Positions 46,343 through 63,399 of a DNA stretch of 64,000 bases are shown here, one piece after another. The first letter of the stretch is position 1. Each line of letters begins with the position of its first letter. This stretch comes from Flavobacterium pisciphilum (lineage in GTDB: Bacteria > Bacteroidota > Bacteroidia > Flavobacteriales > Flavobacteriaceae), in the NCBI RefSeq assembly GCF_020905345.1, contig NZ_JAJJMO010000001.1, positions 744,001 through 808,000 on the forward strand, in the 5' to 3' direction. The notes under the pieces are model-generated. The model searched no databases and was not told the DNA's origin. It was given only the letters and a program-made list of their open reading frames with translations. Made by a program: the position numbers and the translations under genes.

Positions 46343-46407
46343 CAAATTTAAGTTCATTAACTCTCAACTTTCTTATACTATTCCTTATTAGATTTGTGAC
46401 ATTTACT
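46343..46407 (-). promoter_or_regulatory. Promoter with 17-bp metal-regulon box, HMA operon
   Basis: Minus strand: box AGTAAATGTCACAAATC at 46407-46391, preceded by AATC, and exact -7 element TAAATTTG at 46350-46343. The box begins exactly 57 bp upstream of the -7 element. The other gene-free part of the gap to 46488 shows nothing else. Confidence 0.7.
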
Positions 46408-46487
46408 GATTGAATCACTAGGCTATTAATCTTCTTTAAGTTTTTAATGCTCTAAATCAATGTATGAACAACTGACAATCCTATCTT

Positions 46488-48638
46488 TTAAAATTTCATT
46501 CTTTGGATTCGAACTGCATTAAGTATTGCCAATAACGCCACTCCTACATCAGCAAACACTGCTTCCCACATAGTAGCAAGTCCACCTGCTCCAAGAATCA
46601 AAACGATAGCTTTTATAGAAAATGCTAAAATGATGTTTTGCCAAACTATTTTTTTGGTTTGCTTTCCTATATTTATTGCCATTGCAATTTTTGAAGGCAT
46701 ATCGTCTTGTATCACTACATCGGCAGTTTCGATAGCAGCATCACTTCCTAAACCTCCCATTGCAATCCCTGCATCACTTAAAGCAATTACTGGTGCATCG
46801 TTTACTCCATCACCCACAAATGCTACACTGCCAGCACGGTTCTTGATTTCTTTCACCTTATTCACCTTATCTTCTGGGAGTAAATCTCCGTATGCATTGT
46901 CAATTCCTAATTGTGTTGCAACATGCTCTACAACTGCACTTTTATCGCCACTAAGCATGGTGACTCTAATATTCATACTATGCAATTTATCAATTGCAAT
47001 TTTTGCATCCACTTTAATACTATCTGAAATTGTAAGGTAACCAACAAATTTTCTGTCATAAGAAATGGCAATTACTGTGTACACAATGCTTCCAGTATTA
47101 GCATCATGACTGACATTAAATTTATCAAGTAATTTAAAATTACCAACCAATAATTCTTTTCCGTTCACAGTAGATTTAAGCCCATATCCAGCTATTTCCT
47201 CAGTATCTAATAGTTTAATGCTATTATCTATTTCTCCAACATAGTTATGAATGGCTGAAGCGACTGGATGTGTACTCTGACTTTCCAAAGCATTTACCAT
47301 TTTAAGTATTTCGTCTTTATCAAATTCAGGTTTTATTAATACTTCTTGAACTTTAAAGACACCTTCTGTCATTGTTCCTGTTTTATCAATAACTACGTTC
47401 TGAACATTGGCAAGAATATCCAAGAAATTGGATCCTTTAAACAGTATTCCATTATGACTTGCTGCTCCAATACCTCCAAAATATCCCAAGGGAATAGAGA
47501 TTACCAACGCACAAGGACATGAAATAACTAGAAATACTAATGCTCTATATAACCACTCACTAAACACATAATTAGCAACAAAAAGAGCTGGCAACAATGT
47601 AATAGCAATTGAAAGAAACACTATTATAGGTGTATATACCTTGGCAAACTTACGAATGAACAATTCTGTAGGTGCTTTTTGAGCAGTTGCATCCTGTACC
47701 AGCTCTAATATCTTACTTAATTTACTATCTGAATAGGCTACGGTTACCCTTACCTGACTTACGGTATTTAGATTAATCATACCCGCCAATACCGTTTCTC
47801 CTTTTGATTTGGTATCTGGTTTGCTTTCTCCTGTGAGAGCTGCAGTATTATAAGAAGCACTTTCAGAGATGAGTTCCCCGTCAAGTCCTAATTTCTCTCC
47901 TGGCTTTAACTGGATAATATCTCCAATTTTTGCATCTTCTGCTTTTATAACCACCAATTTATCTCCTTGCAGTATGGTAACTTCATCTGGACGTTGGTCT
48001 AATAAAGCCTTAATGTTTCCTTTAGCTCGTGATACTGCAAGTGTTTGAAACACTTCTCCCACAGCATAAAATAACATAACAGCTACAGCTTCGGGATATT
48101 CTCCTATAGCAAAAGCTCCCATTGTAGCAATAACCATCAAAAAAAACTCTGAGAAAAAATCTTTGTAACGAATACTCTCAATAGCTTCTTTAATTACTGG
48201 TAATCCAACCGGAATATATGCCACTACATACCATCCCAATCTTACCCAGTTAGTGAACCAATCCTGCGGGAAATAATTATCTAATCCGATGCCCGTTAGT
48301 AATAAAACTAATGATATAACAGCTGGTAAAAATAACTGAAATACAGTTTTATCTTCAAGATCATGGCTGTGGTCGTGATCATGGTCGTGACTATGATCAT
48401 GATGACCTTCTTTTTTCTTATTTTTCCCATGATTGTGGTCATGGTCATGATGATCGTGGTCGTGTTTTTCTTCTGAGCAACTTTTTTCTTCCAAGAGTAC
48501 TTCAACTCCTGTTTTAGTATATTCTTTTTCCGTTTTTAAACAACACAACTGATTTCCTTGAGCATCATACTTATGTTGATGTCCCTCTTTTTTTTGAGGT
48601 TTTAAATAAACATCTGTACTACAACATTGCTTTGACAT
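46488..48638 (-). CDS. P1B-type ATPase, Zn2+/Cd2+/Pb2+ exporter (ZntA/CadA type)
   Basis: 716 residues. The N-terminus has Cys pairs (QCC, LCC) and a His/Asp-rich stretch (about 58-94) instead of a standard HMA domain. The core is complete: membrane motif SCPCALVIS near 374, phosphorylation loop DKTGTMTEG near 417, SHPVASAIH and GDGVNDAPVIALSDAG. CPCALVISIPLGYFGG and the C-terminal membrane segment with ADVGVALLAILNAVR point to the Zn/Cd/Pb class rather than copper. It would pump metal from the cytoplasm. It has its own promoter with an inverted repeat, unlike its neighbours' 17-bp box, and lies downstream of a Fur-family gene. Confidence 0.9.
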   Translation of the reverse strand: MSKQCCSTDVYLKPQKKEGHQHKYDAQGNQLCCLKTEKEYTKTGVEVLLEEKSCSEEKHDHDHHDHDHNHGKNKKKEGHHDHSHDHDHDHSHDLEDKTVFQLFLPAVISLVLLLTGIGLDNYFPQDWFTNWVRLGWYVVAYIPVGLPVIKEAIESIRYKDFFSEFFLMVIATMGAFAIGEYPEAVAVMLFYAVGEVFQTLAVSRAKGNIKALLDQRPDEVTILQGDKLVVIKAEDAKIGDIIQLKPGEKLGLDGELISESASYNTAALTGESKPDTKSKGETVLAGMINLNTVSQVRVTVAYSDSKLSKILELVQDATAQKAPTELFIRKFAKVYTPIIVFLSIAITLLPALFVANYVFSEWLYRALVFLVISCPCALVISIPLGYFGGIGAASHNGILFKGSNFLDILANVQNVVIDKTGTMTEGVFKVQEVLIKPEFDKDEILKMVNALESQSTHPVASAIHNYVGEIDNSIKLLDTEEIAGYGLKSTVNGKELLVGNFKLLDKFNVSHDANTGSIVYTVIAISYDRKFVGYLTISDSIKVDAKIAIDKLHSMNIRVTMLSGDKSAVVEHVATQLGIDNAYGDLLPEDKVNKVKEIKNRAGSVAFVGDGVNDAPVIALSDAGIAMGGLGSDAAIETADVVIQDDMPSKIAMAINIGKQTKKIVWQNIILAFSIKAIVLILGAGGLATMWEAVFADVGVALLAILNAVRIQRMKF

Positions 48639-48696
48639 ATCTAATTATTTTTTAATTCTATGACAAAGTTATTGGTCTGTTTTGGGAACTTGGTTG

Positions 48697-48749
48697 CAAA
48701 TGTAATACTGCAGTTTTATTTTGGATTTTAGTAATGAAACCAAAATAAA
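48697..48749 (-). promoter_or_regulatory. Promoter of Zn/Cd ATPase gene with long inverted repeat
   Basis: Minus-strand -7 element TACATTTG (48704-48697) matches the consensus exactly. Immediately upstream is a perfect 10-bp inverted repeat, TTTATTTTGG (48715-48724) and CCAAAATAAA (48740-48749), with a 15-bp spacer, covering the -33 region. It is probably a regulator site; it differs from the 17-bp box of the other metal promoters. Confidence 0.55.
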
Positions 48750-48776
48750 TCAAAGAATCTCATCATATTACGAATA

Positions 48777-49193
48777 TTAAAAAAACTTAGAACATTTTTC
48801 GCAAATCCCTTTCATTACAAAATTGACACTTTCTAATAAGAATTTTTCAGGAAGTTGCATGGGTGGTATAGAGATACTTTCGAGGCAATATGTATTATGA
48901 CAACGGTTACAATTAAAATGAACATGTAACTCGCCAAGCGTACACATACAAGACTCCATACAAATCGAATATTTCATCGAACCAGAACCATCGTCAATAC
49001 TATGAATAAGTAAATTTTCATGAAACAAGCTCAAAGTTCTAAAAATGGTTGATTTATTAACTGTAACTAATTCTGTCTCCAGATCAGTTAGACTAAATGC
49101 TTTTTCAAATTCAGTCATCGTCTTGAATATTAACAACCTTACTGATGTTGGTTTTATATTCCTATTCAATAATTTTTTTTCCAAACCTTCCAT
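48777..49193 (-). CDS. Fur-family transcriptional regulator
   Basis: 138 residues: an N-terminal winged helix (TSVRLLIFKTM...VNKSTIFRTLSLF) and a C-terminal metal-binding part with HVHFNCNRC and GICEKC, the two CxxC pairs of the structural zinc site, plus His residues for a regulatory metal. Close to Zur/PerR-like members; the sensed metal cannot be told. It lies 138 bp upstream of the Zn/Cd ATPase gene on the same strand and is a candidate for binding the inverted repeat there. Its own promoter carries the 17-bp metal-regulon box. Confidence 0.87.
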   Translation of the reverse strand: MEGLEKKLLNRNIKPTSVRLLIFKTMTEFEKAFSLTDLETELVTVNKSTIFRTLSLFHENLLIHSIDDGSGSMKYSICMESCMCTLGELHVHFNCNRCHNTYCLESISIPPMQLPEKFLLESVNFVMKGICEKCSKFF

Positions 49194-49242
49194 CTTTTAT
49201 ATTTTATTTAAACCTCTATATAATAAACTTAGAAAACAATTA

Positions 49243-49306
49243 TAAAATTAGGCAATTTGTTCAGTACCAGTTTTACAATATTCTGGTTTATTTTATGAGA
49301 TTTACT
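49243..49306 (-). promoter_or_regulatory. Promoter with 17-bp metal-regulon box, Fur-family gene
   Basis: Minus strand: box AGTAAATCTCATAAAAT (49306-49290), preceded by AATC as in the HMA promoter, and a near-consensus -7 TAATTTTA (49250-49243), 56 bp apart start to start. Confidence 0.55.
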
Positions 49307-49359
49307 GATTAACCATTTTACTAAATATTTCAACTAGTGTAAAAAAACTATAATACCAA

Positions 49360-49929
49360 TTACAAATAATGTATATAACCAATTTCTGGCAGGTACATAC
49401 AATTCTCGCAATTATCATATTCAAAAGTTGATTCAGCAGGTTGTTCAAAATTGATTTTTAAAAATGCATCTGAGAATAAAGCATACGGCGGAAATTTGGC
49501 AATATGATTTTTGAGCATTTTGTGAGCTTCCACAACTGGAGCTCCATAAAGTTTCTCAAACCTTCCAATTTTATATTTAGTAAAAGTACCATAGTGCACA
49601 ATAATTTTTAATGACAAAGGAATTTCCATTGCAAGTTGCAACGATAGCCTTGTTACTTCCTTTTTAAAGTTGTTATACATTACTACAATCTGAGCTATTG
49701 TATCGTCAAAAGAGGGAATCTGGCGGTATTTATAAAACAATACGGCATCACCTTCAATCTCAGAAACTTCAAGTGAAAGGTTGTTACTATCAACTATTGA
49801 TTTCAGGAGATTCTCAGTTATGTATTTTCCAATAAACATATTGGTACTTATAACAAAATCTGTAAAACCAGATATGTCCGGAATCATCAGCATGCCTGTT
49901 TTATCTTGGGGTATTTGAGTAGGAAACAT
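49360..49929 (-). CDS. DUF2652 protein (cyclase-homology-like)
   Basis: 189 residues. The blocks MIPDISGFTDFV, SLEVSEIEGDAVLFY and IIVHYG identify the DUF2652 family, which resembles the core of class III nucleotide cyclases (first Asp in PDISGFT, second in EGDAV). No cyclase activity can be claimed from this sequence. It stands alone, with a promoter carrying a copy of the metal-regulon box, so it may belong to the metal response. Function unknown. Confidence 0.75.
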   Translation of the reverse strand: MFPTQIPQDKTGMLMIPDISGFTDFVISTNMFIGKYITENLLKSIVDSNNLSLEVSEIEGDAVLFYKYRQIPSFDDTIAQIVVMYNNFKKEVTRLSLQLAMEIPLSLKIIVHYGTFTKYKIGRFEKLYGAPVVEAHKMLKNHIAKFPPYALFSDAFLKINFEQPAESTFEYDNCENCMYLPEIGYIHYL

Positions 49930-49960
49930 ATCGGTATTAAATATTTTTTGTTTTGTGATA

Positions 49961-50025
49961 CAAATTTTAGCATAGTAAAACTATATCGTATGGTCCTATT
50001 CCCTATTTGATTTATAACATTTACA
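49961..50025 (-). promoter_or_regulatory. Promoter with 17-bp metal-regulon box, DUF2652 gene
   Basis: Minus strand: box TGTAAATGTTATAAATC (50025-50009) and -7-like AAAATTTG (49968-49961), exactly 57 bp apart. The sequence after the box (GGGAATAGG) resembles that after the HMA-operon box (AGGAATAG). From here to 50258 I see only AT-rich DNA. Confidence 0.5.
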
Positions 50026-50258
50026 GATATCAAGAATCTAATAGGCAATCGATATAACATTTTTTCCCCCATAGCATTATATATTCTCTACAAATACAGC
50101 ATTGTTAGAAGATTTATTTAAGTTTTTCTTTATTCAAATTGATATATTGAAGGATAGTATTGCCTGAAAATTATGCTAATAATTTAAATTAAAATTGTGT
50201 GTATAGTCAATATTTTCTTATTTTTAGATGATAATTTTTAACTAGAAACCAATAGAAC

Positions 50259-50336
50259 ATGAAGTTTGAATATACAATACTGAGGAGTAATACAGTCGTT
50301 AATCTAATTAAATACGAATACCAACATGGATACTAA
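50259..50336 (+). CDS. Leader ORF 1, 25 codons, overlapping the next gene start
   Basis: Small ORF with core SNTVVNLIKYEYQHG that ends 11 bp inside the start of the 50326 gene in another frame. Two homologous ORFs precede the two paralogues. Amino-acid similarity, shared stop overlap and an in-frame 3-bp indel support translation; the peptide may act by translational coupling. Not a recognised family. Confidence 0.5.
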   Translation: MKFEYTILRSNTVVNLIKYEYQHGY

Positions 50337-51249
50337 AGATCCAAGATTTAACGGACTCAGCATTGCTACCGGAGTCGTTCGCCACTCAGACCTTTGTTAT
50401 TTGATTGCCACACACGACCAAGCTACCAGCGAAGGTTATAGCGATTCGATACTTTTTACTCTATATCGTGAAACTCTATATGCTGGCGTAGTGCCATGGC
50501 TTGCCTGTTCTGGAACAGTCTGTCATATACCTGCCGAACGTTACCTCATGTTGGGCAGTGATGGATCAGTCGAAGCCAGTGGCGGTGGTACTAAAAATGA
50601 AGAAGCAATTGCCAACTGCGGAGTAGACCCAAGAAAACGCGGTCCTCTTCGTGAAATCCGTGGTATTGCTAACGGTAGAGCCTATGCTGTAGGAACCTGT
50701 CGCCAAGCCTATATCCGTGAGGATGCAGATCAATGGAAATGCATTGACCAGAGTGCTCAAATTGGTGATACTCCAATTACTGACACCAGCTTTGAATCTA
50801 TCGATGGATTCAACGAACAAGAAATTTATACTGTTGGTTGGGAAGGTGAAATATGGAAATATGATGGTTCTCTTTTCACTCAACAAAATAGTCCAACAGA
50901 TCTAGCACTCTATAAAGTTCGCTGTGCACCAGATGGTTTTACTTATGCCTGCGGTCAGCTCGGAACCTTGCTTCGTGGACGTGATAATCAATGGGAAGTA
51001 ATCAAGCATGAAAGCACCACCGAAGATCTTTGGGGTATGGAGGTTTTCGATGGGAAATTGTATGTGTCGTCTGCTCATTTCGTCTATCAACTCGTAGATG
51101 GCAAACTCGAACCTATTGACTTTGGGGACGAGGTTCCACGGACTTGTTATCACCTAAGTGCAGCCAACGGAATCATGTGGTCCATAGGATCCAAAGATGT
51201 AATGGAGTTTGATGGGGTGAACTGGAAACGCTGCCTACAAATTGACTAA
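50326..51249 (+). CDS. Tandem paralogue 1, beta-propeller-like protein of unknown function
   Basis: 307 residues, no signal peptide or membrane segment, so probably cytoplasmic or exported without a Sec signal. From about residue 100 on there are repeated blades of the type GIANGRAYAVGTCRQAYIRE, EIYTVGWEGEIWKYDG, FTYACGQLGTLLRGRDNQWE and LWGMEVFDGKLYVSSAHFVY, typical of beta-propeller strands ending in W/Y-D-G turns. Residues about 25-100 vary among the three paralogues, while the rest is nearly identical. Base composition is visibly richer in G+C than the flanking metal genes, suggesting transfer. Each copy has a leader ORF overlapping its start. I do not recognise the family; a lectin-like, effector or immunity role is possible but unsupported. 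Confidence 0.8.
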   Translation: MDTKDPRFNGLSIATGVVRHSDLCYLIATHDQATSEGYSDSILFTLYRETLYAGVVPWLACSGTVCHIPAERYLMLGSDGSVEASGGGTKNEEAIANCGVDPRKRGPLREIRGIANGRAYAVGTCRQAYIREDADQWKCIDQSAQIGDTPITDTSFESIDGFNEQEIYTVGWEGEIWKYDGSLFTQQNSPTDLALYKVRCAPDGFTYACGQLGTLLRGRDNQWEVIKHESTTEDLWGMEVFDGKLYVSSAHFVYQLVDGKLEPIDFGDEVPRTCYHLSAANGIMWSIGSKDVMEFDGVNWKRCLQID

Positions 51250-51252
51250 TCG

Positions 51253-51274
51253 AATTATCTTTTAAAGGATAATT
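51253..51274. other. Palindrome between paralogues 1 and 2
   Basis: AATTATC and GATAATT arms around TTTTAAAG. A related perfect palindrome follows paralogue 2, so it is part of the duplicated unit. It could be a weak hairpin in the transcript. Confidence 0.45.
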
Positions 51275-51296
51275 TTAATTAAAAAGCCTATAAAAA

Positions 51297-51374
51297 ATGA
51301 AGCTTAAACATATAATAAAGAGTAATACAGTCGTTAATTTAATTAAATCTGAAAATCAACATGGACGACACTAG
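51297..51374 (+). CDS. Leader ORF 2, 25 codons, overlapping the next gene start
   Basis: Homologue of the leader at 50259 with the conserved core SNTVVNLIKSENQHG. It is one codon shorter before the core and one longer at the end, so reading frame is kept. It overlaps the 51361 gene by 14 bp in a different frame. Confidence 0.5.
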   Translation: MKLKHIIKSNTVVNLIKSENQHGRH

Positions 51375-52290
51375 AGATCCACGATTCAGCGGACTCAGCA
51401 TAGCTACTGGAGTCGTTCGCTACTCAGACTTGTCCTATTTGATTACTACACACGACGAAGCTACCAGCGAGGGATATATCGATTCAATAATGTACACTCT
51501 AGACCGTAAAACCTGGTATGCCGGCACAGTGCCGTGGCTTGGCTGCTCTGGAACGGTCTGCCATATACCTGCCGAACGCTACTTAGCACTGGGCACTGAT
51601 GGATCAGTAAGAGCCAGTGGTGGTGGCGTAGTAAAGGAAGAGGCACCTATCGCAAACTCCGGAATCGATCCAAAGAAGCGTGGTCCTCTTCGCGAAATCC
51701 GTGGCATTGCTAATGGTCGAGCCTATGCTGTAGGAACATGTCGCCAAGCCTATGTTCGTGAGGACGAAAATCTATGGAGATGCATTGACCAGAGTGCTCA
51801 AATTGGTGATACTCCAATTACTGACACCAGCTTTGAATCTATCGATGGATTCAACGAACAGGAAATTTATACTGTTGGTTGGGAAGGTGAAATATGGAAG
51901 TATGATGGTTCTCTTTTCACCCAACAGAATAGTCCAACTAACTTGGCACTCTATAAAGTTCGCTGTGCACCAGATGGTTTTGCTTATGCCTGTGGTCAGC
52001 TCGGAACCTTACTTCGTGGACGTGATAATCAATGGGAAATAATTAAGCATGAAAGTACCACAGAAGATCTTTGGGGTATGGAAATTTTCAATGGAAAATT
52101 ATATGTATCCTCCTCTCATTTCGTCTATCAACTCGTAGATGGCAAACTCGAACCTATTGACTTTGGAGACGAGGTTCCACGGACTTGTTATCACCTAAGT
52201 GCTGCCGACGGAATCATGTGGTCCATAGGCCCAAAAGATGTAATGGAGTTTGATGGTTTAAACTGGAAACGTTGTTTACAAATTGACTAA
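51361..52290 (+). CDS. Tandem paralogue 2, beta-propeller-like protein of unknown function
   Basis: 309 residues, nearly identical to the 50326 protein after about residue 100 and more diverged between 25 and 100 (for example SYLITTHDEATSEGYID). Same propeller-like repeats, no export signal. It starts 1035 bp after paralogue 1, with the intergenic leader and hairpin duplicated too, so the unit duplicated as a block including its leader ORF. Function unknown. Confidence 0.8.
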   Translation: MDDTRDPRFSGLSIATGVVRYSDLSYLITTHDEATSEGYIDSIMYTLDRKTWYAGTVPWLGCSGTVCHIPAERYLALGTDGSVRASGGGVVKEEAPIANSGIDPKKRGPLREIRGIANGRAYAVGTCRQAYVREDENLWRCIDQSAQIGDTPITDTSFESIDGFNEQEIYTVGWEGEIWKYDGSLFTQQNSPTNLALYKVRCAPDGFAYACGQLGTLLRGRDNQWEIIKHESTTEDLWGMEIFNGKLYVSSSHFVYQLVDGKLEPIDFGDEVPRTCYHLSAADGIMWSIGPKDVMEFDGLNWKRCLQID

Positions 52291-52295
52291 TCGAG

Positions 52296-52313
52296 TTATC
52301 TTTTAAAAGATAA
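52296..52313. other. Palindrome between paralogues 2 and 3
   Basis: Perfect palindrome TTATCTTTTAAAAGATAA, equivalent to the one at 51253-51274. Six bases after the preceding stop codon. Confidence 0.45.
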
Positions 52314-52338
52314 TTTTCAACTAAAAAACCAATAAAAC

Positions 52339-52416
52339 ATGAAACTTAAATATACAATACTGAAGAGTAACACAGTCACTAATCTAATTAAATCTGAATA
52401 CCAATATGGACACTAG
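52339..52416 (+). CDS. Leader ORF 3, 25 codons, overlapping the next gene start
   Basis: Third homologue, core SNTVTNLIKSEYQYG, ending in a TAG 11 bp inside the 52406 gene. Together the three leaders keep length, frame and overlap geometry. Confidence 0.5.
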   Translation: MKLKYTILKSNTVTNLIKSEYQYGH

Positions 52417-53329
52417 AGATCCACGATTCAGCGGACTCAGCATTGCTACTGGAACTGTTCGCTATTCAGACCTTTGTTATTTGATTGCCAGAAGCGATGA
52501 TGTTATCCGCGAAGGTTATAGCGATTCAATACTATTGGCTCTAGATTGTGGAACTTGGGGGGCTGATGCTGTACAGTGGCTTGCCTGTTCTGGAACAGTC
52601 TGTCATATACCAGCAGAACGTTACCTAACGTTGGGAATCGATGGATCAATAGACGCCAGTGGTGGTGGCTTTAGAACCCAAGAGACTATTGTTAACTCTG
52701 AAGTAGATCCAAAAAAACGCGGCCCACTTCGTGAAATCCGTGGTATTGCTAACGGTAGAGCCTATGCTGTAGGAACATGTCGCCAAGCCTATGTTCGTGA
52801 GGATGCAGATCAATGGAAATGCATAGACCAGAGTGCTCAAATTGGTGATACACCAATCACCGACACCAGCTTCGAATCTATTGATGGATTCAACGAACAG
52901 GAAATTTATACTGTCGGTTGGGAAGGTGAAATATGGAAGTATGATGGTTCTCTTTTCTCTCAGCAGAATAGTCCAACAAATCTAGCACTCTATAAAGTTC
53001 GCTGTGCACCAGATGGTTTTACTTATGCCTGTGGTCAGCTCGGAACCTTACTTCGTGGACGTGATAATCAATGGGAAATAATTAAGCATGAAAGTACCAC
53101 AGAAGATCTCTGGGGTATGGAAATTTTCAATGGAAAATTATATGTATCCTCCTCTCATTTCGTCTATCAACTCGTAGATGACAAGCTCAAACCTGTTGAC
53201 TTTGGAGATGAGATTCCACGGACTTGTTACCACCTAAGCGCAGCCGATGGAATCATGTGGTCCACAGGACCCAAGGATGTAATGGAGTTTGACGGTTCGA
53301 ATTGGAAACGCTGTCTACAAATTGACTAA
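52406..53329 (+). CDS. Tandem paralogue 3, beta-propeller-like protein of unknown function
   Basis: 307 residues, same architecture as the two preceding genes. The variable segment is the most different of the three (CYLIARSDDVIREGYSD, LALDCGTWGADAVQW), whereas residues after 100 match almost exactly. This mosaic of a variable N-terminal part and a homogenised C-terminal part suggests diversifying selection on a recognition surface with gene conversion elsewhere. A small hairpin (TCGGATT/AATCCGA, 53340-53360) follows the stop. Confidence 0.8.
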   Translation: MDTRDPRFSGLSIATGTVRYSDLCYLIARSDDVIREGYSDSILLALDCGTWGADAVQWLACSGTVCHIPAERYLTLGIDGSIDASGGGFRTQETIVNSEVDPKKRGPLREIRGIANGRAYAVGTCRQAYVREDADQWKCIDQSAQIGDTPITDTSFESIDGFNEQEIYTVGWEGEIWKYDGSLFSQQNSPTNLALYKVRCAPDGFTYACGQLGTLLRGRDNQWEIIKHESTTEDLWGMEIFNGKLYVSSSHFVYQLVDDKLKPVDFGDEIPRTCYHLSAADGIMWSTGPKDVMEFDGSNWKRCLQID

Positions 53330-53528
53330 CTCAGTCATCTCGGATTAACTCTGAATCCGAATTGACCTTCCTATCGAAGTAGAAATAATGAAGAATAAAA
53401 ACCGAGGTACATATATACTTGAATATGCCAAGAATAATTATTTTAAATTTGCATCTAAAATTTTCATTAAACCATAATTTATTTGATAATTTTTTATTCG
53501 TAAAACTTAAATTTGGTGTATTGAAGTA

Positions 53529-53536
53529 TATTTTTG
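53529..53536 (+). promoter_or_regulatory. Predicted promoter -7 element TATTTTTG
   Basis: Exact TAnnTTTG match 61 bp before the ATG of the HMA-AraC regulator at 53597. No good copy of the 17-bp box lies 57 bp upstream; a partial one (AATCAGTACACCACAAA, 53561-53577) sits downstream of it. Confidence 0.4.
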
Positions 53537-53596
53537 CCTTGAAATTTAATAACAAGTGTCAATCAGTACACCACAAAATTCTGATATACCAAGAAT

Positions 53597-54160
53597 ATGA
53601 GCATATTATTCATTAAAAATATGGTTTGTAACCGTTGTATAATGGTCGTTCAAAATGAACTTGAAAAACTCAATTTGGACTTTACAAATATTAAACTAGG
53701 AGAAGTTACCTTAAGTAAGGAACTTAGCTCAGACGAAAGAGATTCAGTTGAAAAAGTGCTGGTTCCTTTAGGTTTTGAGGTCATAGATGATAAAAAAAGT
53801 CGAATCATTGAAAAGATAAAAAATATCATCATCGATTTGGTACATCATCAAGATAATGATTCAAAAAATAATCTATCTGATATATTGAGTGAAAAACTGA
53901 ATCATGACTACAACTATCTTTCAAATCTATTTTCTGAAGTGGAAGGTACTACGATAGAAAAATATTTTATTGCTCAAAAAATTGAAAAAATAAAAGAGCT
54001 TTTGGTTTATGATGAATTATCGCTAAGCGAAATTGCTATTCGTTTAAACTATTCAAGCGTAGCCTACCTTAGCAATCAGTTTAAAAAAGTTACTGGACTA
54101 ACTCCAAGTTATTTCAAACAGATTCGTGAAGATAAAAGAAAACCACTGGATAAGGTATAA
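53597..54160 (+). CDS. HMA-like sensor fused to AraC HTH, regulator 1
   Basis: 187 residues. The N-terminal 65 residues look like a compact HMA-type fold with the metal-binding pair in NMVCNRCIMVVQNELEKL. A linker follows, and residues 105-180 form an AraC-type double helix-turn-helix (SLSEIAIRLNYSSVAYLSNQFKKVTGLTPSYFK). A regulator that binds metal directly through an HMA-like domain would sense cytoplasmic Cu(I) or a similar ion. It is upstream of the copper ATPase gene by 88 bp, and a paralogue lies on the other side of the ATPase gene. It is a candidate reader of the 17-bp box found in six promoters here. Confidence 0.85.
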   Translation: MSILFIKNMVCNRCIMVVQNELEKLNLDFTNIKLGEVTLSKELSSDERDSVEKVLVPLGFEVIDDKKSRIIEKIKNIIIDLVHHQDNDSKNNLSDILSEKLNHDYNYLSNLFSEVEGTTIEKYFIAQKIEKIKELLVYDELSLSEIAIRLNYSSVAYLSNQFKKVTGLTPSYFKQIREDKRKPLDKV

Positions 54161-54224
54161 GTAAATATTACAAATCAAACCCATAATTCCGCAATAGAAT
54201 TTAGAGTTCTTGTCGCCAACTTTG
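54160..54224 (+). promoter_or_regulatory. Promoter with 17-bp metal-regulon box, copper ATPase gene
   Basis: Box AGTAAATATTACAAATC (54160-54176) and near-consensus -7 CAACTTTG (54217-54224), 57 bp apart. The intervening sequence is strongly similar to that of the promoter at 63336. Confidence 0.65.
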
Positions 54225-54248
54225 CATGTAAAATACAACAAGCGAAAT

Positions 54249-56666: not shown

Positions 56667-56721
56667 TCTCCATTCAAAACGGTTTAATAATTCTATTTAT
56701 ATCATCAAAAAAACTAGCAAA

Positions 56722-56832
56722 ATGAAAAATCTAACAACCAATATTTCCAATATACAGAGTGATCACTGCCTATCAAAAATAAGCCATGCGACTTTAGACC
56801 TAAACAGTTGGATGCGATGGAAAAAACCTTAA
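56722..56832 (+). CDS. Short ORF overlapping HMA-AraC regulator 2, possible HMA remnant
   Basis: 36-codon ORF (begins MKNLTTNISNIQSDHC) overlapping the start of the 56817 gene by 16 bp in another frame. Its SDHC segment resembles the degenerate SEHC of the first CopA domain, so it may be a truncated HMA protein or a leader ORF. It spans a palindrome AGTGATCACT (56758-56767). Weak support. Confidence 0.3.
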   Translation: MKNLTTNISNIQSDHCLSKISHATLDLNSWMRWKKP

Positions 56833-57413
56833 AATTACTAATCAAAGGAATGGTATGCAACAGATGCATTTATGTCCTATCAGAAGAATTTGTAAAACTT
56901 GGTCTTGATGTTTCCGAAATACGTTTAGGTGAAATAATCTTAAAGGATACAGGCAAAAAAATTGAAGAACAGGTTATCAGAACGATGCTTAAAAAAAATG
57001 GATTCGATCTGTTATATAGTAAGAATCAAAAAATTATCAATCTGATTAAAGACACTGTTGAAAAGGGGATTCAAGAACAATTAGATACAGGAGAACCAAT
57101 TAAATTTTCAACACTCATAAGCAACGAATTACACAAAGACTACGATGCATTGAGTTTCTTGTTTTCAACTTCTGAGGGGTATACCTTAGAAAAATTCATC
57201 ATTTCGAAAAAGATAGAAAAAGTAAAAGAGCTTTTAGTATATACAGATCAATCGATGACAGAAATTACAAATTCTTTAGGTTATAATAGTCCGGCGCATC
57301 TGTCTAATCAATTAAAAAAATATACTGGTTTTACTTCTTCTTATTATAAACAAATAAGACGCGATAAAATGGCAATTGTACAAAATCAATTAAGTAAAAA
57401 TAATAGTTCATAA
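56817..57413 (+). CDS. HMA-like sensor fused to AraC HTH, regulator 2
   Basis: 198 residues from the ATG at 56817 (a TTG three codons earlier is the alternative). Same layout as regulator 1: an N-terminal HMA-like domain with KGMVCNRCIYVLSEEF and a C-terminal AraC HTH (SMTEITNSLGYNSPAHLSNQLKKYTGFTSSYYKQIRRDK). The two share the block LGE(V/I)xL after the metal motif and the whole HTH region. It follows the copper ATPase gene by 150 bp with no boxed promoter of its own, so it may be co-transcribed. A terminator follows. Confidence 0.85.
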   Translation: MEKTLKLLIKGMVCNRCIYVLSEEFVKLGLDVSEIRLGEIILKDTGKKIEEQVIRTMLKKNGFDLLYSKNQKIINLIKDTVEKGIQEQLDTGEPIKFSTLISNELHKDYDALSFLFSTSEGYTLEKFIISKKIEKVKELLVYTDQSMTEITNSLGYNSPAHLSNQLKKYTGFTSSYYKQIRRDKMAIVQNQLSKNNSS

Positions 57414-57475
57414 AAACTCTTGATGCAACTTTATTAACTAAAGTGTACAATACTATTTAAGTAAAATTAGCTTAT

Positions 57476-57510
57476 AAAACCCTGTTCATATTATATGAAC
57501 AGGGTTTTTC
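57476..57510 (+). terminator. Strong Rho-independent terminator
   Basis: Perfect stem AAAACCCTGTTCATA with its complement around a 3-nt loop TTA, followed by TTTTTC. It ends the copA to HMA-AraC 2 transcription unit. Confidence 0.85.
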
Positions 57511-57607
57511 TTTTTCATGCATTTAACTCAGCAATAAAAAACAACAACACACTAACATACAGTATTTTAACCCAGTATTTATCATTGTTTTTTTCTTTAT
57601 AATCAGA

Positions 57608-57672
57608 AGTAAATTTCACAACTCTTACCTGTAATTGTGCAGGAAGCCCGCTTGCATTAGTATGTAATTTTG
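57608..57672 (+). promoter_or_regulatory. Promoter with 17-bp metal-regulon box, RND operon
   Basis: Box AGTAAATTTCACAACTC (57608-57624) and exact -7 element TAATTTTG (57665-57672), again 57 bp apart start to start. It drives the three-gene efflux operon beginning at 57716. Confidence 0.65.
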
Positions 57673-57715
57673 CTTGTGAAATTTAATTTTTATTGAATAA
57701 TTAAAATATAAAACC

Positions 57716-58786
57716 ATGACATATAATAAATACACTACCAGAAGGTTTGGGGTTTTAATTCCTCTATTTAGCGTCCTATTGATTGCTTGCGAAAACAAAG
57801 AACAAAAAACGGCTCCTGCAAATTCAACTGCCAAAGTAGATGTCCCAAAATTACCTGTAGACATCATCATTGCGAATGAGCAGGAACTCAATCAAGAAGA
57901 AGCTATAGTGGGAACAATGCTCCCCTATCGTGAAGTCACTATTATGAGTGAATTATCTCAAAAAATCACTAAAGTGGCTTTTAAAGAAGGTAGCTACGTA
58001 AGTCAAGGAGCTATTCTTTACACATTAAACAATGCAGATATTAAGTCCCGACTAAAACAGATTGGTGCTGAATTAAAATTGGCTCGATTGGATAAAGACA
58101 GATTGGGCAATCTTTTAAAAACCGAAACTGTAAAACAGCAAGAATATGATGAGGGTTTAATGCGCTTACATTCCTTGGAGGCACAAAAAGAGTTTCTTGA
58201 TGTAGAATTGGCTAAGACTGTAATTAGAGCTCCATTTTCTGGAAAAATTGGTATTTCAAAAGTACACGAAGGTGCCTATGTATCTCCTAATATGCAACTT
58301 GTTACACTTCAAGATCAAAATAGAATTAAAATCAATTTCTCTGTCCCTGAAAGATACCTTTCATTAATAAAAACAGGAAATCAAATAAAGTTTAATACTG
58401 AACTATCTGACCAACAACATTCAGCTACTATCTCTGCTACTGAACCTGGACTTGATACAAGCAGAAGCCTACAAGTACAAGCCATATCTAATAATACCAA
58501 CGGACAATTCCGAGCTGGTTTATCTGCCAAAGTTTATTTCCCAATTACCTCCAAGGGTTCAAGTGGTGTGATGATACCTACGGAAGCTCTAATACCGGGT
58601 GAGAAAGGCTATACTGTTTTTGTTATAAAAAATGGTTTAGCAAAAGCTCTGGCTGTAACCATAAGCAACAGAACAGAAACAAACGCAATCATCACGTCTG
58701 GGGTAAAAACTGGTGACCGTATTATTATCTCAAATACGTTACGTCTTGGCGACGGCACTCCTGTAACAGCCGTTACGTCTAAATAA
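57716..58786 (+). CDS. RND efflux periplasmic adaptor (membrane fusion protein)
   Basis: 356 residues. Lipoprotein signal with lipobox LLIAC. It shows the adaptor layout: a lipoyl half (ILYTLNNADIKSRL), an alpha-helical hairpin around 105-155, the second lipoyl half (TVIRAPFSGKIGISKVHEGAYVSP) and a beta-barrel region. It links the inner-membrane pump to the outer-membrane channel. First gene of an operon with the pump (21 bp gap) and the channel. The promoter carries the metal-regulon box. Confidence 0.9.
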   Translation: MTYNKYTTRRFGVLIPLFSVLLIACENKEQKTAPANSTAKVDVPKLPVDIIIANEQELNQEEAIVGTMLPYREVTIMSELSQKITKVAFKEGSYVSQGAILYTLNNADIKSRLKQIGAELKLARLDKDRLGNLLKTETVKQQEYDEGLMRLHSLEAQKEFLDVELAKTVIRAPFSGKIGISKVHEGAYVSPNMQLVTLQDQNRIKINFSVPERYLSLIKTGNQIKFNTELSDQQHSATISATEPGLDTSRSLQVQAISNNTNGQFRAGLSAKVYFPITSKGSSGVMIPTEALIPGEKGYTVFVIKNGLAKALAVTISNRTETNAIITSGVKTGDRIIISNTLRLGDGTPVTAVTSK

Positions 58787-58807
58787 TCTATTTTAATTTG
58801 TAATGTT

Positions 58808-61800
58808 ATGAGTATATCATCTTTAAGTATAAAAAAACCAGTTTTGGCTGGAGTATTTTCCGTTCTTATTGTCATTTTAGGCATCATTGGATGGAAAGAA
58901 TTAGGTATTCGTGAATTTCCATTAACAGAACCACCTGTAATATCTGTGGTTACTTTCTATCCTGGTGCAAGTCCAGATGTAATAGCATCCAAGCTTACCA
59001 AACCGATGGAAGAGTCTATTGCTGAAGCTAACGGAATACGAACCATCTCTTCTGAATCTAGAGAGCAAGTAAGTGTAATCTCTATAGAGTTTAACCGAGA
59101 AATAGACATCGAAGATGCACTAAACGATGTTCGGGATAAGGTAGCTAAATCTCGAAATCAGCTTCCATCTGATGTTGACCCTCCAATTGTTGAAAAATCT
59201 TCTTCACCAGATAATCTTGTGGCTTTCCTTGAAGTAGAAAGCGATACCAAAGATATAAAAGAAGTAAGCCATCTGGCATCTACGATTATTAAAGACAGGA
59301 TGCAATCTATCCCCGGCATTAGCCAAGTAGCCGTTGTCGGTGAACATAAATATGCCATGCGTCTTCGGTTTGAGCCTGTAAAACTTGCTGCCTATCAACT
59401 TACTGCCGAAGACATTCGCAAGGCATTGCTAAGAGAAAACATCGATCTGCCTTCTGGACGAATAGAAGGTAATAACAGTGAACTAAGTATCCGAACATTG
59501 GGACGTCTTACGACGATAAAAGATTTTGAAGAAATGCCTATTAAGCAAGTCGGAAATACTGTAATTCGATTGAGAGATATAGGTTCTGCCGAATTGGGAG
59601 AAGTAAATGAACGAACTGCTATTATCAACGAAACAGGAAACCTAAATCGTATTGGAGTTGGAGTAGCAATTCAAATACAACGAGGTGCCAATGCCATTGC
59701 TGTCGTAGATGAATTTTATAAACGACTTGAAGTATTACGCAAAGAAGTACCAACTGATTATCGATTAATAGTGGGCTTTGATTATACACGTCCTGTACGG
59801 GAATCTATTAAAGAAGTAGAAGAAACCTTATTTATTGCTTTTGGTCTAGTGGTATTAATTATCTTTTTATTTTTAAGAGACTGGAGGTCTACAATTATTC
59901 CAGTGCTTGCTATTCCTGTATCAATTCTTTCTGCATTTTTTATTATGTACATAGCAGGGTTTTCTATAAATGTATTAACCCTTTTGGGATTGGTACTTGC
60001 GATAGGACTTGTAGTAGATGATGCCATCGTTGTGCTTGAAAACATTTATAAAAAAATTGAAGAAGGCATGACGCCTATACAAGCGGCATTCAAAGGTTCC
60101 AAAGAGATTTATTTTGCCGTTATTTCAACTACCATTACACTGGCTGCAGTATTCCTTCCAATTGTTTTTATGGGAGGTATCAGTGGACAGCTCTTTAAAG
60201 AATTTGCCATTGTAGTATCTGGCTCTGTGTTAGTATCAGCTTTTGTTGCCCTTACACTTACGCCAATGTTAGGTGCTTATTTTTTAAAGAAAAAAGAAAA
60301 ACCAGGATGGTTCTACGAAACTACTGAACCTTTCTTTCTTCGTTTGAACAATGGATATGCTCGTTTGCTTATTGCGTTCATGAAATTCAGATGGTTAGCT
60401 TGGATATTTTTAGCAGGTACAGCCTCTCTTATTTATTTTGTCGGCAAAGAACTTCCATCAGAACTTGCACCTGTAGAAGATCGTTCTAATATGAGCCTCA
60501 TAGCCGTTGCTCCCGAAGGAGTTTCTTTTGATTATATGAAAAAACATATGACTGAAGTGGGTAAATATGTAAATGACTCTACCGAAGGACTGTATCAAAC
60601 TTATTCTATGGTGGCCATTTCATTCATCCCTGCTCCTGCTGCCGTTAATGTGGCTGTACAAAGTATTTATCTCAAAGATCCTAAAGAAAGGAAAAAAACC
60701 ATACAGGATTTGTATAACCAATATGGTGCAGCTTCAGGAAAATTTAGAGGGTTTCTATTATTTCCGTATCTGCCTCCAACTATTGGTACTCGTTACGGTG
60801 GTGGTATGCCAGTGCAATATGTATTACAAGCACAAAACCTAGACAGTTTAACAGCAATACTTCCGAAATTTTTAGCAGCAGCTCGTCAAAGTAAGAAACT
60901 TATGTTTGTTGATGCTGACCTAAAAATTAATAAGCCTGAAGTAAAAATAAACATCGACAGACAAAAAGCAGCCTTAATGGGCGTATCAATACAAGAGGTT
61001 GCCCGCACATTACAGCTTTCATTTTCAGGACAACGCTATGGTTATTTTTTGCGTAATGATCGCCAGTATGAAGTAATTGGACAATTAGACAAAACAAATA
61101 GAAATGATATGAGTGACCTAAATGCCATTCATGTTCGCTCAGCAACAGGCCAGATGATTCCTTTAAGTAATTTGGTAACAACTGAGGAAGCAGTAAGCCC
61201 TGCAGCAATTTATCGTTACGATCAATACATATCTGCTACCATATCTGCGGCAACCGCTCCAGGAGTCAGTCTTGCAGAAGGAATAGAGGAAATCAAAAAA
61301 ATAAAAAGTGAAGTATTGAATGAAAGCTTCAAAACTTCTTTGGCTGGTCAATCTCGCGATTATCAAGAAAGCCAAGGTAATATTGGCTTCACCCTTATCC
61401 TTGCACTAGTACTTATTTACATGATTCTTGCCGCTCAGTTTGGAAGTCTTCGCGATCCATTAACTATTATGCTTACCGTACCAATGGCTATTACTGGAGC
61501 CTTACTTAGTCTGTACTGGTTTGGTCAGAGTTTAAATGTATTCAGTCAGATTGGTATTATTACTCTCGTAGGATTAATTACCAAAAACGGGATACTAATT
61601 GTTGAATTTGCCAACCACTTAAAAGAATCTGGACTATCAAGATACGATGCGGCTATACAGGCTGCCGAGCAACGTTTCCGTCCTATTTTAATGACATCAC
61701 TGGCAATGATATTCGGAGCATTACCGATTGCCCTTACAGTAAACAGTCGCCAGTCATTAGGGATTGTGATTGCAGGAGGATTAGTCTTTTCTGGAATACT

Positions 61801-61894
61801 TACCCTGTTTATCATACCAGCAGTTTACTCCTATCTATCAAGCACAAAACCTGAAAAGATTGTTGTAGAAGAAGATAATGAAGAGACAAATTAG
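58808..61894 (+). CDS. RND efflux pump, HAE-1 (AcrB/MexB-like) type
   Basis: 1028 residues with the two-fold RND layout: a first membrane helix, a large periplasmic loop, membrane bundle with the proton-relay acidic pair in GLVVDDAIVVLEN (near 402-412), a second loop and a second bundle ending in FGALPIALTV. The DD pair in this context is typical of hydrophobe/amphiphile exporters, not of the CusA/CzcA heavy-metal class. It is nevertheless placed in the metal island under the shared promoter box, so it may export metal-binding compounds or respond to envelope stress from metals. Substrate unknown. Confidence 0.92.
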   Translation: MSISSLSIKKPVLAGVFSVLIVILGIIGWKELGIREFPLTEPPVISVVTFYPGASPDVIASKLTKPMEESIAEANGIRTISSESREQVSVISIEFNREIDIEDALNDVRDKVAKSRNQLPSDVDPPIVEKSSSPDNLVAFLEVESDTKDIKEVSHLASTIIKDRMQSIPGISQVAVVGEHKYAMRLRFEPVKLAAYQLTAEDIRKALLRENIDLPSGRIEGNNSELSIRTLGRLTTIKDFEEMPIKQVGNTVIRLRDIGSAELGEVNERTAIINETGNLNRIGVGVAIQIQRGANAIAVVDEFYKRLEVLRKEVPTDYRLIVGFDYTRPVRESIKEVEETLFIAFGLVVLIIFLFLRDWRSTIIPVLAIPVSILSAFFIMYIAGFSINVLTLLGLVLAIGLVVDDAIVVLENIYKKIEEGMTPIQAAFKGSKEIYFAVISTTITLAAVFLPIVFMGGISGQLFKEFAIVVSGSVLVSAFVALTLTPMLGAYFLKKKEKPGWFYETTEPFFLRLNNGYARLLIAFMKFRWLAWIFLAGTASLIYFVGKELPSELAPVEDRSNMSLIAVAPEGVSFDYMKKHMTEVGKYVNDSTEGLYQTYSMVAISFIPAPAAVNVAVQSIYLKDPKERKKTIQDLYNQYGAASGKFRGFLLFPYLPPTIGTRYGGGMPVQYVLQAQNLDSLTAILPKFLAAARQSKKLMFVDADLKINKPEVKINIDRQKAALMGVSIQEVARTLQLSFSGQRYGYFLRNDRQYEVIGQLDKTNRNDMSDLNAIHVRSATGQMIPLSNLVTTEEAVSPAAIYRYDQYISATISAATAPGVSLAEGIEEIKKIKSEVLNESFKTSLAGQSRDYQESQGNIGFTLILALVLIYMILAAQFGSLRDPLTIMLTVPMAITGALLSLYWFGQSLNVFSQIGIITLVGLITKNGILIVEFANHLKESGLSRYDAAIQAAEQRFRPILMTSLAMIFGALPIALTVNSRQSLGIVIAGGLVFSGILTLFIIPAVYSYLSSTKPEKIVVEEDNEETN

Positions 61895-61939
61895 CTGATG
61901 AAATCACCACGGCGGACTAAATTCCAAAAAAAGATACAG

Positions 61940-63283
61940 ATGAAAAAGAATATTTTATATATAATTATGTTACTGTTGCTGATAGGCACCAGTAACCCAT
62001 TGCATGCCCAAAAAGCACTGTCTCTTACCGATGCATTAGAAATGGCTAAGCAAGGTAATAAAACGATACAGATACAGACGCTAGAAGAAATACATTCTCG
62101 CGAATTAACTCGCGAAACAAAGGGTGGTTTATTACCAAACATTTCAGCAAACGCAGCCTATTCTCACTACTTCGACAAGCAACAAATATTCCTACCCGGT
62201 TCATTTGCCGGTACCAATAAAGCAGTGCAGGATGTAGCTGTAGGCGGGAGAAATACCTATAACGGATTCCTTTCGTTAAACCAACCTATTTATGCACCAG
62301 GGCTACATCGCTTAACAAAAGCAGCATTAATCAATGAAAAGATCGAAAATGAAAAAACTGCTAAACTAAAAAGTCAAGTGGCGCTTCTGGTTTCTACTAA
62401 ATATTTTGATATACTGATGATGAATCAACAGCTTAATTTACTGAAACAAAGTCTACAGCGAAATATTAGGGCACTAAATGACTCCAGATCATTATTTGCA
62501 CAAGGGAGAGGTCTGAAAGCGGATACTTTAAGAAGTTTTATTGCTGTAGAAAATCTAAAATCTTCGGTTTCCTATTTAAATAACAACATAGACGTTTCTA
62601 GCATTGAGCTCAAAAGACTCATTGGAATGGAAGAACCTGAAGAAATAAAACTAAGTGACAATCTTGACTTTGATAGTAAAGCAAATCAAAGTGAATTTTA
62701 CAAAGTTGATGAAGCTTTGAAAATCGCTGAGACAAACCGTAATGACTTAAATATTCAAGAACTAACTATTGATTTTCAGCAAAAAAAGCTGCAAGCTGCC
62801 AAGGCTGAATTATTACCTCAGCTTTCATTAATAGGACAATATCAGTTACAAGCGCAGGCAGATAATATGAATTTAGATAATTATACATGGCCAAGAACCT
62901 CTTACTTAGGTTTACAGCTTTCGGTACCTATTTTTAATGGCAATCGCAGCAACTCTCAAATTAATCAAGAGAATATCAAGGTGCAACAAGAAAAAATACG
63001 TTTAATTGATTTAAAAGATGAAATCAAAACGGAACTGGCTATTATTATAAGCAAATGGAAAGAAGCACTTACGCAATTGGATATTCATCAAACAACGGTA
63101 AAATCAGCTGAATTAAACTACCAAATGATAGAAGACCGTTTCAAAAATGGTCTAAGTTCAAGACTTGAATTAACAGATGCTGAATTGGCATTGACACAAT
63201 CCAAGATAAACTACCTGAACGCAGTACATAACCTGCGAGTACTCCATGTTGAACTACAACACGCTCTTGGTCTTTTAAAATAA
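61940..63283 (+). CDS. TolC-type outer-membrane efflux channel
   Basis: 447 residues from the ATG at 61940, which gives a standard signal peptide (KKNILYIIMLLLLIG to LHAQ). An in-frame ATG at 61898 would add 14 basic residues and is unlikely. Two OEP-type repeats of long helices are visible, the second with PIFNGNRSNSQINQE and RFKNGLSSRLELTDAE, as in TolC/OprM relatives. It completes the tripartite RND system. Confidence 0.9.
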   Translation: MKKNILYIIMLLLLIGTSNPLHAQKALSLTDALEMAKQGNKTIQIQTLEEIHSRELTRETKGGLLPNISANAAYSHYFDKQQIFLPGSFAGTNKAVQDVAVGGRNTYNGFLSLNQPIYAPGLHRLTKAALINEKIENEKTAKLKSQVALLVSTKYFDILMMNQQLNLLKQSLQRNIRALNDSRSLFAQGRGLKADTLRSFIAVENLKSSVSYLNNNIDVSSIELKRLIGMEEPEEIKLSDNLDFDSKANQSEFYKVDEALKIAETNRNDLNIQELTIDFQQKKLQAAKAELLPQLSLIGQYQLQAQADNMNLDNYTWPRTSYLGLQLSVPIFNGNRSNSQINQENIKVQQEKIRLIDLKDEIKTELAIIISKWKEALTQLDIHQTTVKSAELNYQMIEDRFKNGLSSRLELTDAELALTQSKINYLNAVHNLRVLHVELQHALGLLK

Positions 63284-63335
63284 TACAGTCATCACAATCA
63301 GATAAAAACAAAGCTTGTACAGCTATTTTTTTTAC

Positions 63336-63399
63336 AGTAAATATTACAAATTAAACAAATAATAACGCAATAAAATGAAGTAGCGATTGCTCAATTTTG
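63336..63399 (+). promoter_or_regulatory. Promoter with 17-bp metal-regulon box, small HMA gene
   Basis: Box AGTAAATATTACAAATT (63336-63352) and -7-like CAATTTTG (63392-63399), 56 bp apart. The spacer (CGCAATA and neighbours) is nearly the same as in the copA promoter, so this may be a duplicated promoter. Confidence 0.65.

Follow-up and report, generated by a model that had tools for sequence, protein, structure and literature searches.

In a 64,000-nucleotide stretch of the Flavobacterium pisciphilum genome (contig NZ_JAJJMO010000001.1, positions 744,001 to 808,000 of the forward strand; hereafter the window), a series of 17-bp boxes precedes genes such as copA and those for CopZ-like proteins, and it is very probable that each box is one half, the distal one, of a tandem operator for one-component, copper-responsive activators, here called HMA-AraC, in which a CopZ-like domain is fused to an AraC-type DNA-binding domain. 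A first-pass annotation had described six boxes as a metal regulon and named two HMA-AraC proteins as the natural candidates for its regulators; the observation is partly confirmed and its interpretation partly supported, being largely right but incomplete. All six 17-mers are present where they had been placed, each pointing at its gene, namely a CopZ-like operon (box at 46391), a Fur-family gene (49290), a DUF2652 gene (50009), copA (54160), an RND efflux operon (57608) and a second CopZ-like gene (63336). From the start of the box to an element resembling TAnnTTTG, two of which are exact and four of which have one mismatch, the distance is 57, 56, 57, 57, 57 and 56 bp, respectively. The geometry and conservation of the operator, its targets and its association with the regulators are established by sequence comparison.

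The 17-bp box alone was rejected as genome-wide evidence. At up to three mismatches, AGTAAATGTCACAAATC was matched 30 times in the 5.46-Mb genome and its backwards control 49 times, and therefore the box alone is not rare. Five of the 30 matches fall in the 17-kb part of the window that holds the boxes; the box at 49290 has four mismatches and hence is not among them. When three other matches with two mismatches were inspected, two were within reading frames and one (L006) had no closed open reading frame of at least 70 aa. A box no commoner than its backwards control would suit a chance cluster in an AT-rich genome, an explanation whose probability we consider negligible, because the boxes were recovered by a model trained without the window, their phase is fixed, and they recur across the phylum. 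This model, R1, is a 75-nt, sequence-only model of 61 sites from other genomes, which are less than 80% identical to one another and were selected for a core, GTAAATNYYACAAATC, with at most two mismatches and TTTG at offset 60. On the whole genome, the boxes at 54160, 46391, 57608, 50009 and 63336 took, in this order, ranks 1 to 5 (57.2 to 34.5 bits, E from 1.2e-14 to 1.4e-7). Seven matches had E <= 5.5e-6 and the next one only E 0.0023. The sixth (L094) lies before a HYC_CC_PP-family gene that is followed by an outer-membrane efflux (OEP) gene, and the seventh (L095) has a third HMA-AraC gene (186 aa) on one side and, on the other, a gene for a P-type ATPase with HMA and HMBD (heavy-metal-binding) domains. 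The proposed regulon is real, but at least these two member promoters outside the window had been overlooked. A weak match at E 0.0023 (L096), which follows another AraC-type gene and precedes one for a SnoaL-like protein, may be chance.

The proposed genome-wide motif scan, carried out with the external model, thus placed five of the window sites on top, but did not recover the box of the Fur-family gene (14.4 bits). In a scan of the window only, this box ranked sixth (16.5 bits, E 0.00068), and the operator was absent from the sole orthologous Fur promoter obtainable (protein 94% identical). The Fur-family gene (48777 to 49193) was rejected as a member on the grounds of its genome-wide rank and E value and of the one orthologue without a site, and the regulon keeps five of the six promoters claimed for it in the window. 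Chance is already refuted for these five boxes and is the best account of the sixth. The regulators and operators are given below, the -7 elements being placed by the box-to-element measurement and the proximal half-sites by the 21-bp repeat.

53597 to 54160, + strand: HMA-AraC regulator 1, 187 aa, with a CopZ-like N-terminus carrying MVCNRC and a C-terminal AraC DNA-binding domain (Pfam HTH_18, 2.1e-15)
54160 to 54176, + strand: distal half-site, copA promoter (R1, 57.2 bits, genome rank 1)
54181 to 54197, + strand: proximal half-site, copA operator, shifted 21 bp downstream from the distal half-site
54217 to 54224, + strand: -7 element of copA, CAACTTTG
46391 to 46407, - strand: distal half-site, operon of copZ1 and the HMBD lipoprotein gene (R1, 47 bits, genome rank 2)
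46370 to 46386, - strand: proximal half-site, copZ1 operator
46343 to 46350, - strand: -7 element of copZ1, TAAATTTG
56808 to 57413, + strand: HMA-AraC regulator 2, paralogue of regulator 1, ATG start probably at 56817 (Pfam HTH_18)
57608 to 57624, + strand: distal half-site, RND operon (R1, 41.5 bits, genome rank 3)
57629 to 57645, + strand: proximal half-site, RND operator
57665 to 57672, + strand: -7 element of the RND operon, TAATTTTG
50009 to 50025, - strand: distal half-site, DUF2652 gene (R1, 34.6 bits, genome rank 4)
49988 to 50004, - strand: proximal half-site, DUF2652 operator
49961 to 49968, - strand: -7 element of the DUF2652 gene, AAAATTTG
63336 to 63352, + strand: distal half-site, copZ2 (R1, 34.5 bits, genome rank 5)
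63357 to 63373, + strand: proximal half-site, copZ2 operator
63392 to 63399, + strand: -7 element of copZ2, CAATTTTG, the 56-bp variant
49290 to 49306, - strand: rejected sixth box, Fur-family gene (R1 genome rank 19, E 0.27; none in the L009 orthologue)

The 17-bp box had been taken for the complete element; its sequence is real, but it covers only the distal one of two halves repeated in tandem at 21 bp. In the 61 sites, a conserved distal half (AAT-n-T-Y-A-Y-A-A) and a proximal half (AAT-w-n-Y-R-Y-A-A) lie 21 bp apart and are followed by about 20 weakly conserved bases and then by A-A-n-TTTG; the conservation of the core and of TTTG is partly a selection effect, which leaves the remaining positions unaffected. 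When the distal half was compared with the sequence that follows it, similarity peaked at 21 bp (0.59, compared with at most 0.42 at other lags from 14 to 29). Relatives of regulator 1 were collected from genera such as Flavobacterium, Chryseobacterium, Sphingobacterium, Pedobacter, Dysgonomonas and Dyadobacter, and in their loci (the best 80 of 381 matching genome-contig stretches, 76-92% identical; 901,917 bases) the core was found 190 times at up to two mismatches, its reversal 10 times, and eight column shuffles of it 8 to 45 times. The TTTG of the -7 element lies 60 (or 59) bp from the first half-site: with the window included, the offset was 60 in 61 and 59 in 4 of 65 unique perfect cores, 60 in 44 and 59 in 3 of 53 one-mismatch cores, 60 in 13 and 59 in 3 of 32 two-mismatch cores, and 60 in 9 of 160 three-mismatch cores, which are mostly chance matches. 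The fixed promoter phase and activator-like geometry that had been proposed are supported by these sequences and suggest activation. It was considered whether conservation is a by-product of overlap with the stop codon of regulator 1, whose last base is the first base of the copA distal half-site; this was rejected, since the operator is displaced yet recognisable in L024, L060, L064, L069 and L088, and the copZ and RND sites lie elsewhere.

As for the -7 element, the TTTG of the proposed TAnnTTTG holds, but the family form is nAAnTTTG, with A at offset 57 in 61 of 61 sites, TTTG in all 61 by selection, and the first T in only 11; TTG at -33-like offsets was found in only 5. These promoters resemble the Bacteroidota sigma-A promoters described in the excerpt of PMC9723704 in the A and the TTTG, and are unlike them in the first T and the -33 TTG. 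The same excerpt places the TAnnTTTG element of F. psychrophilum at -12 to -5; if this position is transferred to the present promoters, the distal half would lie at -69 to -53 and the proximal half at -48 to -32. An AraC/XylS-type tandem half-site operator beside the promoter is thus indicated by sequence. In E. coli, the araI1 and araI2 half-sites of AraC are 17 bp long, have a 21-bp spacing and overlap the -35 element. The present operators similarly consist of two adjacent promoter-side sites, and AraC binding at araI2 recruits RNA polymerase, as far as the excerpt of PMC4760080 goes; tandem repeats also constitute the AraC-type operator in the available portion of PMC7499043. The sensor is different, being a CopZ-like and not a sugar-binding domain, and so is the setting, a Bacteroidota sigma-A promoter with the -7 TTTG element. 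A protein bound beside RNA polymerase could block it as well, and HMA-AraC might be a repressor that is released by copper. Several copper sensors, such as CopY and CsoR, are repressors. We nevertheless regard this as improbable, since the operator stops upstream of the -7 element, its phase is constant to within 1 bp, and the core promoter is seemingly too weak to need repression, the -33 TTG being missing from 56 and the first T from 50 of the 61 sites.

That the HMA-AraC proteins are the likely regulators is supported, at the level of sequence, by adjacency across the phylum, by co-occurrence and by genomes with one regulator. In the 80 loci, the core (up to three mismatches) lies within 30 nt of the regulator stop in 71 and within 250 nt in 74. 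HMA-AraC was matched at 1e-12 in 142 of the 296 Bacteroidota genomes sampled, own genome included. R1 had a match at 1e-3 in 36 genomes, 33 of them also with HMA-AraC; the other three (G009, G109 and G192, out of 154 genomes without HMA-AraC) all had E >= 5e-4. At E <= 1e-4, a site was present in 25 of 142 genomes with HMA-AraC and in none of 154 without (Fisher 3e-9, own genome included), and in 16 of these 25 the best hit follows a listed HMA-AraC gene of the same strand at a distance of no more than 450 bp. Among 60 loci with diverged regulators (47-65% identity), only 8 scored above 8 with a position-weight matrix, and a test of the geometry was therefore needed: the half-site repeat at a lag of 21 bp (at least 15 of 16) was found downstream of 22 of the 60 regulators, any other lag from 12 to 33 at no more than one each, and lag 21 on the upstream side at none. 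Over all 149 HMA-AraC genes examined, the 21-bp repeat was found at 100, whereas the best of eight other lags reached 6. G297 (Sphingobacterium olei record) and G309 (Tenacibaculum lutimaris record), both genomes with only one HMA-AraC gene, each contain two R1 sites at E <= 0.01 and no more, one at the end of the regulator gene before copA and the other before a CopZ-like gene. In G296, all 13 R1 matches at 0.01 are on one contig.

Alternatively, some other conserved regulator could bind the operator, with the HMA-AraC genes as mere passengers of copper islands. Such an arrangement would account for the co-occurrence, which is expected with any island gene because copper genes travel together, and would agree with a partial Mantel test in which the helix-turn-helix region was not singled out; it is, however, quite unlikely, given that the 21-bp repeat adjoins even HMA-AraC genes that share only about 50% identity with regulator 1, that the operator has the tandem arrangement of AraC-type proteins, that the sole HMA-AraC gene of G297 and of G309 directly precedes one of the two sites, and that regulator-less genomes are devoid of sites at 1e-4 and nearly so at 1e-3.

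Several observations weigh against the assignment of these operators to copper-responsive HMA-AraC activators, an account that is computational throughout. Six of the 80 close loci (L039, L063, L070, L073, L080, L081) have no core within 250 nt of the regulator, 109 of the 142 genomes with HMA-AraC have no R1 match at 1e-3, so that the sequence of the operator, if not its geometry, appears to diverge fast, and in the 200 nt downstream of 49 of the 149 HMA-AraC genes there is no strong 21-bp repeat. Operator divergence tracks regulator divergence (Mantel r 0.82), but the partial test gave 0.44 for the sensor domain and 0.38 for the helix-turn-helix part and hence no specificity of the latter; covariation of the recognition helix with operator bases was set aside as uninformative for this reason. 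Pfam HMA was not called at E <= 0.001 in either regulator. The motif MVCxRC is present in 139 of the 149 HMA-AraC proteins, but the other ten, all diverged members (L184, L185, L188, L189, L199, L207, L212, L215, L216, L228), have MVSxRC, with Ser for the first Cys, and therefore not every HMA-AraC need sense copper via two cysteines; these members may respond to another signal or hold metal in another way. In addition, the RND permease (58808 to 61894) is nearer, by sequence score, to multidrug than to CusA/CzcA models (NF033617, 1043.8 bits with a cut-off of 1250, versus TIGR00914, 381.8 bits with a cut-off of 701).

An AlphaFold2 model of regulator 1 (45 sequences, mean pLDDT 86.0) predicts a ferredoxin-like domain, a connecting helix and an AraC domain. 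The predicted sensor consists of strand 2-7, helix 12-24, strands 29-33 and 36-39, helix 45-58 and strand 61-63, which is the beta-alpha-beta-beta-alpha-beta order of the HMA fold, with Cys11 and Cys14 of a CxxC after strand 1. When the model was searched with Foldseek, AraC DNA-binding domains were on top (2k9s matched), and copper metallochaperones (2qif, Atx1, GolB and CsoZ) were among the lower matches (E about 0.1, probability 0.95-1.00). The family profile, taken over the whole sequence, matched Cu-ATPase chains at E 5.5e-5 to 9e-4. A C-terminal AraC/XylS domain with two helix-turn-helix motifs was found by HTH_18, by the model and by Foldseek, and Pfam and family scans of regulators 1 and 2 gave AraC-type families only, with no MerR, CsoR or CopY-type domain. 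Regulator 2 is 44% identical to regulator 1 and retains MVCNRC. In predicted fold order and CxxC the sensor is like the HMA metallochaperones and the metal-binding domains of Cu-ATPases (CopZ, Atx1); it is unlike them in its fusion to a DNA-binding domain, in its MVCxRC loop and in falling below Pfam HMA detection.

The genes that follow the five operators are:

54252 to 56666, + strand: copA, Cu(+)-type P-type ATPase (TIGR01511, 618 bits, cut-off 397)
46095 to 46313, - strand: CopZ-like HMA protein 1 (Pfam HMA)
45130 to 46083, - strand: HMBD lipoprotein, second gene of the copZ1 operon (Pfam HMBD)
57716 to 63283, + strand: RND efflux operon (adaptor 57716 to 58786, permease 58808 to 61894, TolC-like protein 61898 to 63283)
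49360 to 49929, - strand: DUF2652 protein (Pfam, 1.3e-25)
63433 to 63669, + strand: CopZ-like HMA protein 2 (Pfam HMA, 24.6 bits, just below the cut-off of 24.8)

Similar genes follow the operator elsewhere. When unique promoters in the regulator 1 loci, window included, were counted at a site score above 15, a site was present in 50 of 50 copA promoters, 10 of 10 RND adaptor promoters, 27 of 35 copZ promoters (CopZ1 and CopZ2 as queries gave equal counts, largely of the same genes) and 3 of 4 DUF2652 promoters, the fourth being weaker (score 11, spacer -1). No site was found before the Fur gene (0 of 2 unique promoters), the 716-aa ATPase of the window (0 of 4) or the HMBD lipoprotein gene itself (0 of 5). 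The first genes of 128 unique promoters in the right phase, classed by best BLASTP match to window genes or by likeness, were CopA-type in 62, CopZ-like in 23, RND adaptors in 9, other HMA proteins in 7, azurin-like in 6, DUF2652 in 4, TetR-like in 4, HMA-AraC in 3, multicopper oxidases in 2, other ATPases in 2 and a DUF326 Cys-rich protein in 1, with one each of a cation-efflux protein, an HMBD lipoprotein, a Cys-rich lipoprotein, DUF5661 and an MFS-like protein. From the classes that BLASTP had left without a hit, eight representatives, the MFS-like protein not among them, were scanned with Pfam; no match was obtained for the TetR-like protein, which was named by eye, or for the Cys-rich lipoprotein. 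The list of 128 is biased in that its loci were picked for nearness to regulator 1; the phylum scan is less so, with some of its sites resembling R1 training sites (G245, G002, G095). In that scan, with the best hit per genome at E <= 1e-4 and the own genome excluded, 22 of 24 sites stand before a gene for CopA, CopZ or another protein with an HMA domain; the two others precede a lipoprotein gene (L133) or have no open reading frame found (L141). Among the next five loci (E from 1.6e-4 to 5.1e-4), 3 precede such a gene. Enrichment of the motif before metal genes elsewhere, the absence of which had been named beforehand as refuting, was thus found. The regulon is one of metal genes, as claimed, but because copper proteins dominate its targets and the sensor has CxxC, the signal is most likely copper and not metals generally.

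The two regulators of the window raise the question of how they share the operators. Regulator 1 is likely the master, and regulator 2 is probably a paralogue that acts at the RND promoter or overlaps regulator 1. A stricter division, in which they run separate regulons with slightly different half-sites, copA and copZ for one and the RND pump for the other, would be compatible with tandem operators for HMA-AraC activators but is rather unlikely. The promoters of adaptor genes have a form of their own, ACAACTCTTACCTGTAATTGTG or close to it, and a regulator 2-type gene lies upstream of them in the window as well as in all 8 other such loci (7 by the list of open reading frames and L036 by tblastn). 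A site also stands before regulator 2-type genes themselves, in 4 unique promoters (L012, L036, L037/L047, L053). However, one model finds all forms, and both the copA form and the copZ form occur in genomes with a single regulator. The operators before regulator 2-type genes suggest a cascade from regulator 1 to regulator 2. Autoregulation of regulator 1 was rejected, as no promoter of an orthologue scored above 15 and the four hits that did belong to these regulator 2-type genes (44-46% identical); in L024, which is counted among the 128 promoters, a single core match precedes regulator 1 with a whole-operator score of -13. Near regulator 2-type genes in the genomes of L013, L015, L019, L042, L050 and L056 there are frames of 136-148 aa that match only residues 71-196 of regulator 2, and these AraC-only frames without a sensor are possible sensor-less partners or antagonists. 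The stretch after the regulator stop is identical or nearly so across genera in L029-L032, L034-L035 and L042-L045, which is consistent with horizontal transfer. Diverged HMA-AraC genes, all below 60% identity, also occur on 29 plasmid records.

We infer the metal, DNA binding, the pairing, the sign of regulation and the division of labour between regulators 1 and 2, and propose the following sequence of events. Cu(I) would be held by the two cysteines of the MVCxRC sensor, and the loaded sensor would let a pair of AraC domains occupy both half-sites, with one AraC domain and its two helix-turn-helix motifs on each 17-bp half. Both halves would be on the same face of the DNA, 21 bp being two turns. 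From the proximal half, at about -48 to -32, the bound protein could then stand in for the missing -33 contact and recruit the sigma-A RNA polymerase, as AraC does at araI2. Copper would thereby switch on CopA, CopZ, the HMBD lipoprotein, the RND pump and the DUF2652 protein and, elsewhere in the genome, the operon of the HYC_CC_PP and outer-membrane efflux genes and the second ATPase.

Some genes of the island seem to stand outside this scheme. The His-rich 716-aa P-type ATPase and the Fur-family gene (46488 to 49193) lie within the island with no supported operator, and seem to form a unit of their own, which may be of a zinc type. Three tandem, near-alike genes of 307-309 aa fill the stretch from 50326 to 53329, between the gene for the DUF2652 protein and that for regulator 1; the first had no Pfam match, and no operator was found there in the R1 scan of the window.

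CueR, CsoR, CopY and two-component systems of the CusRS type are known bacterial copper sensors, and HMA-AraC would resemble them in controlling copA- and copZ-type genes by copper. To our knowledge, none of them is in the AraC family, and HMA-AraC differs from them in its AraC DNA-binding domain and its own tandem operator. In the open-licence PMC papers searched, we found neither an HMA-AraC copper regulator nor a cytosolic copper sensor of Bacteroidota described. HMA-AraC is an AraC-family protein with a new sensor and a new regulon, and presumably an activator that senses copper. A wider proposal, to which we give somewhat less than an even chance, is that HMA-AraC is the main, so far unnamed cytosolic copper-sensor class of Bacteroidota, which would take Cu(I) through its own CopZ-like domain, perhaps handed over by CopZ, itself a target, and would act through one phylum-wide 21-bp tandem code, at about -69 to -32, that replaces the -33 element. 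In the databases, 7998 of 8000 scored candidates match HMA-AraC at E <= 1e-20, and the names, in truncated form, among the 120 matches listed are generic, mentioning neither copper nor HMA. If HMA-AraC is indeed a copper-responsive activator of this kind, thousands of generically named proteins would gain a predicted ligand, an operator and a target list, and the DUF2652 and HYC_CC_PP families would gain a copper-handling context. A drug-pump-like RND permease under a copper-type operator would tie copper stress to drug-type efflux. The operator code would also provide a testable inducible promoter architecture for the phylum, and would bear on how sigma-A promoters are activated without a -33 element.

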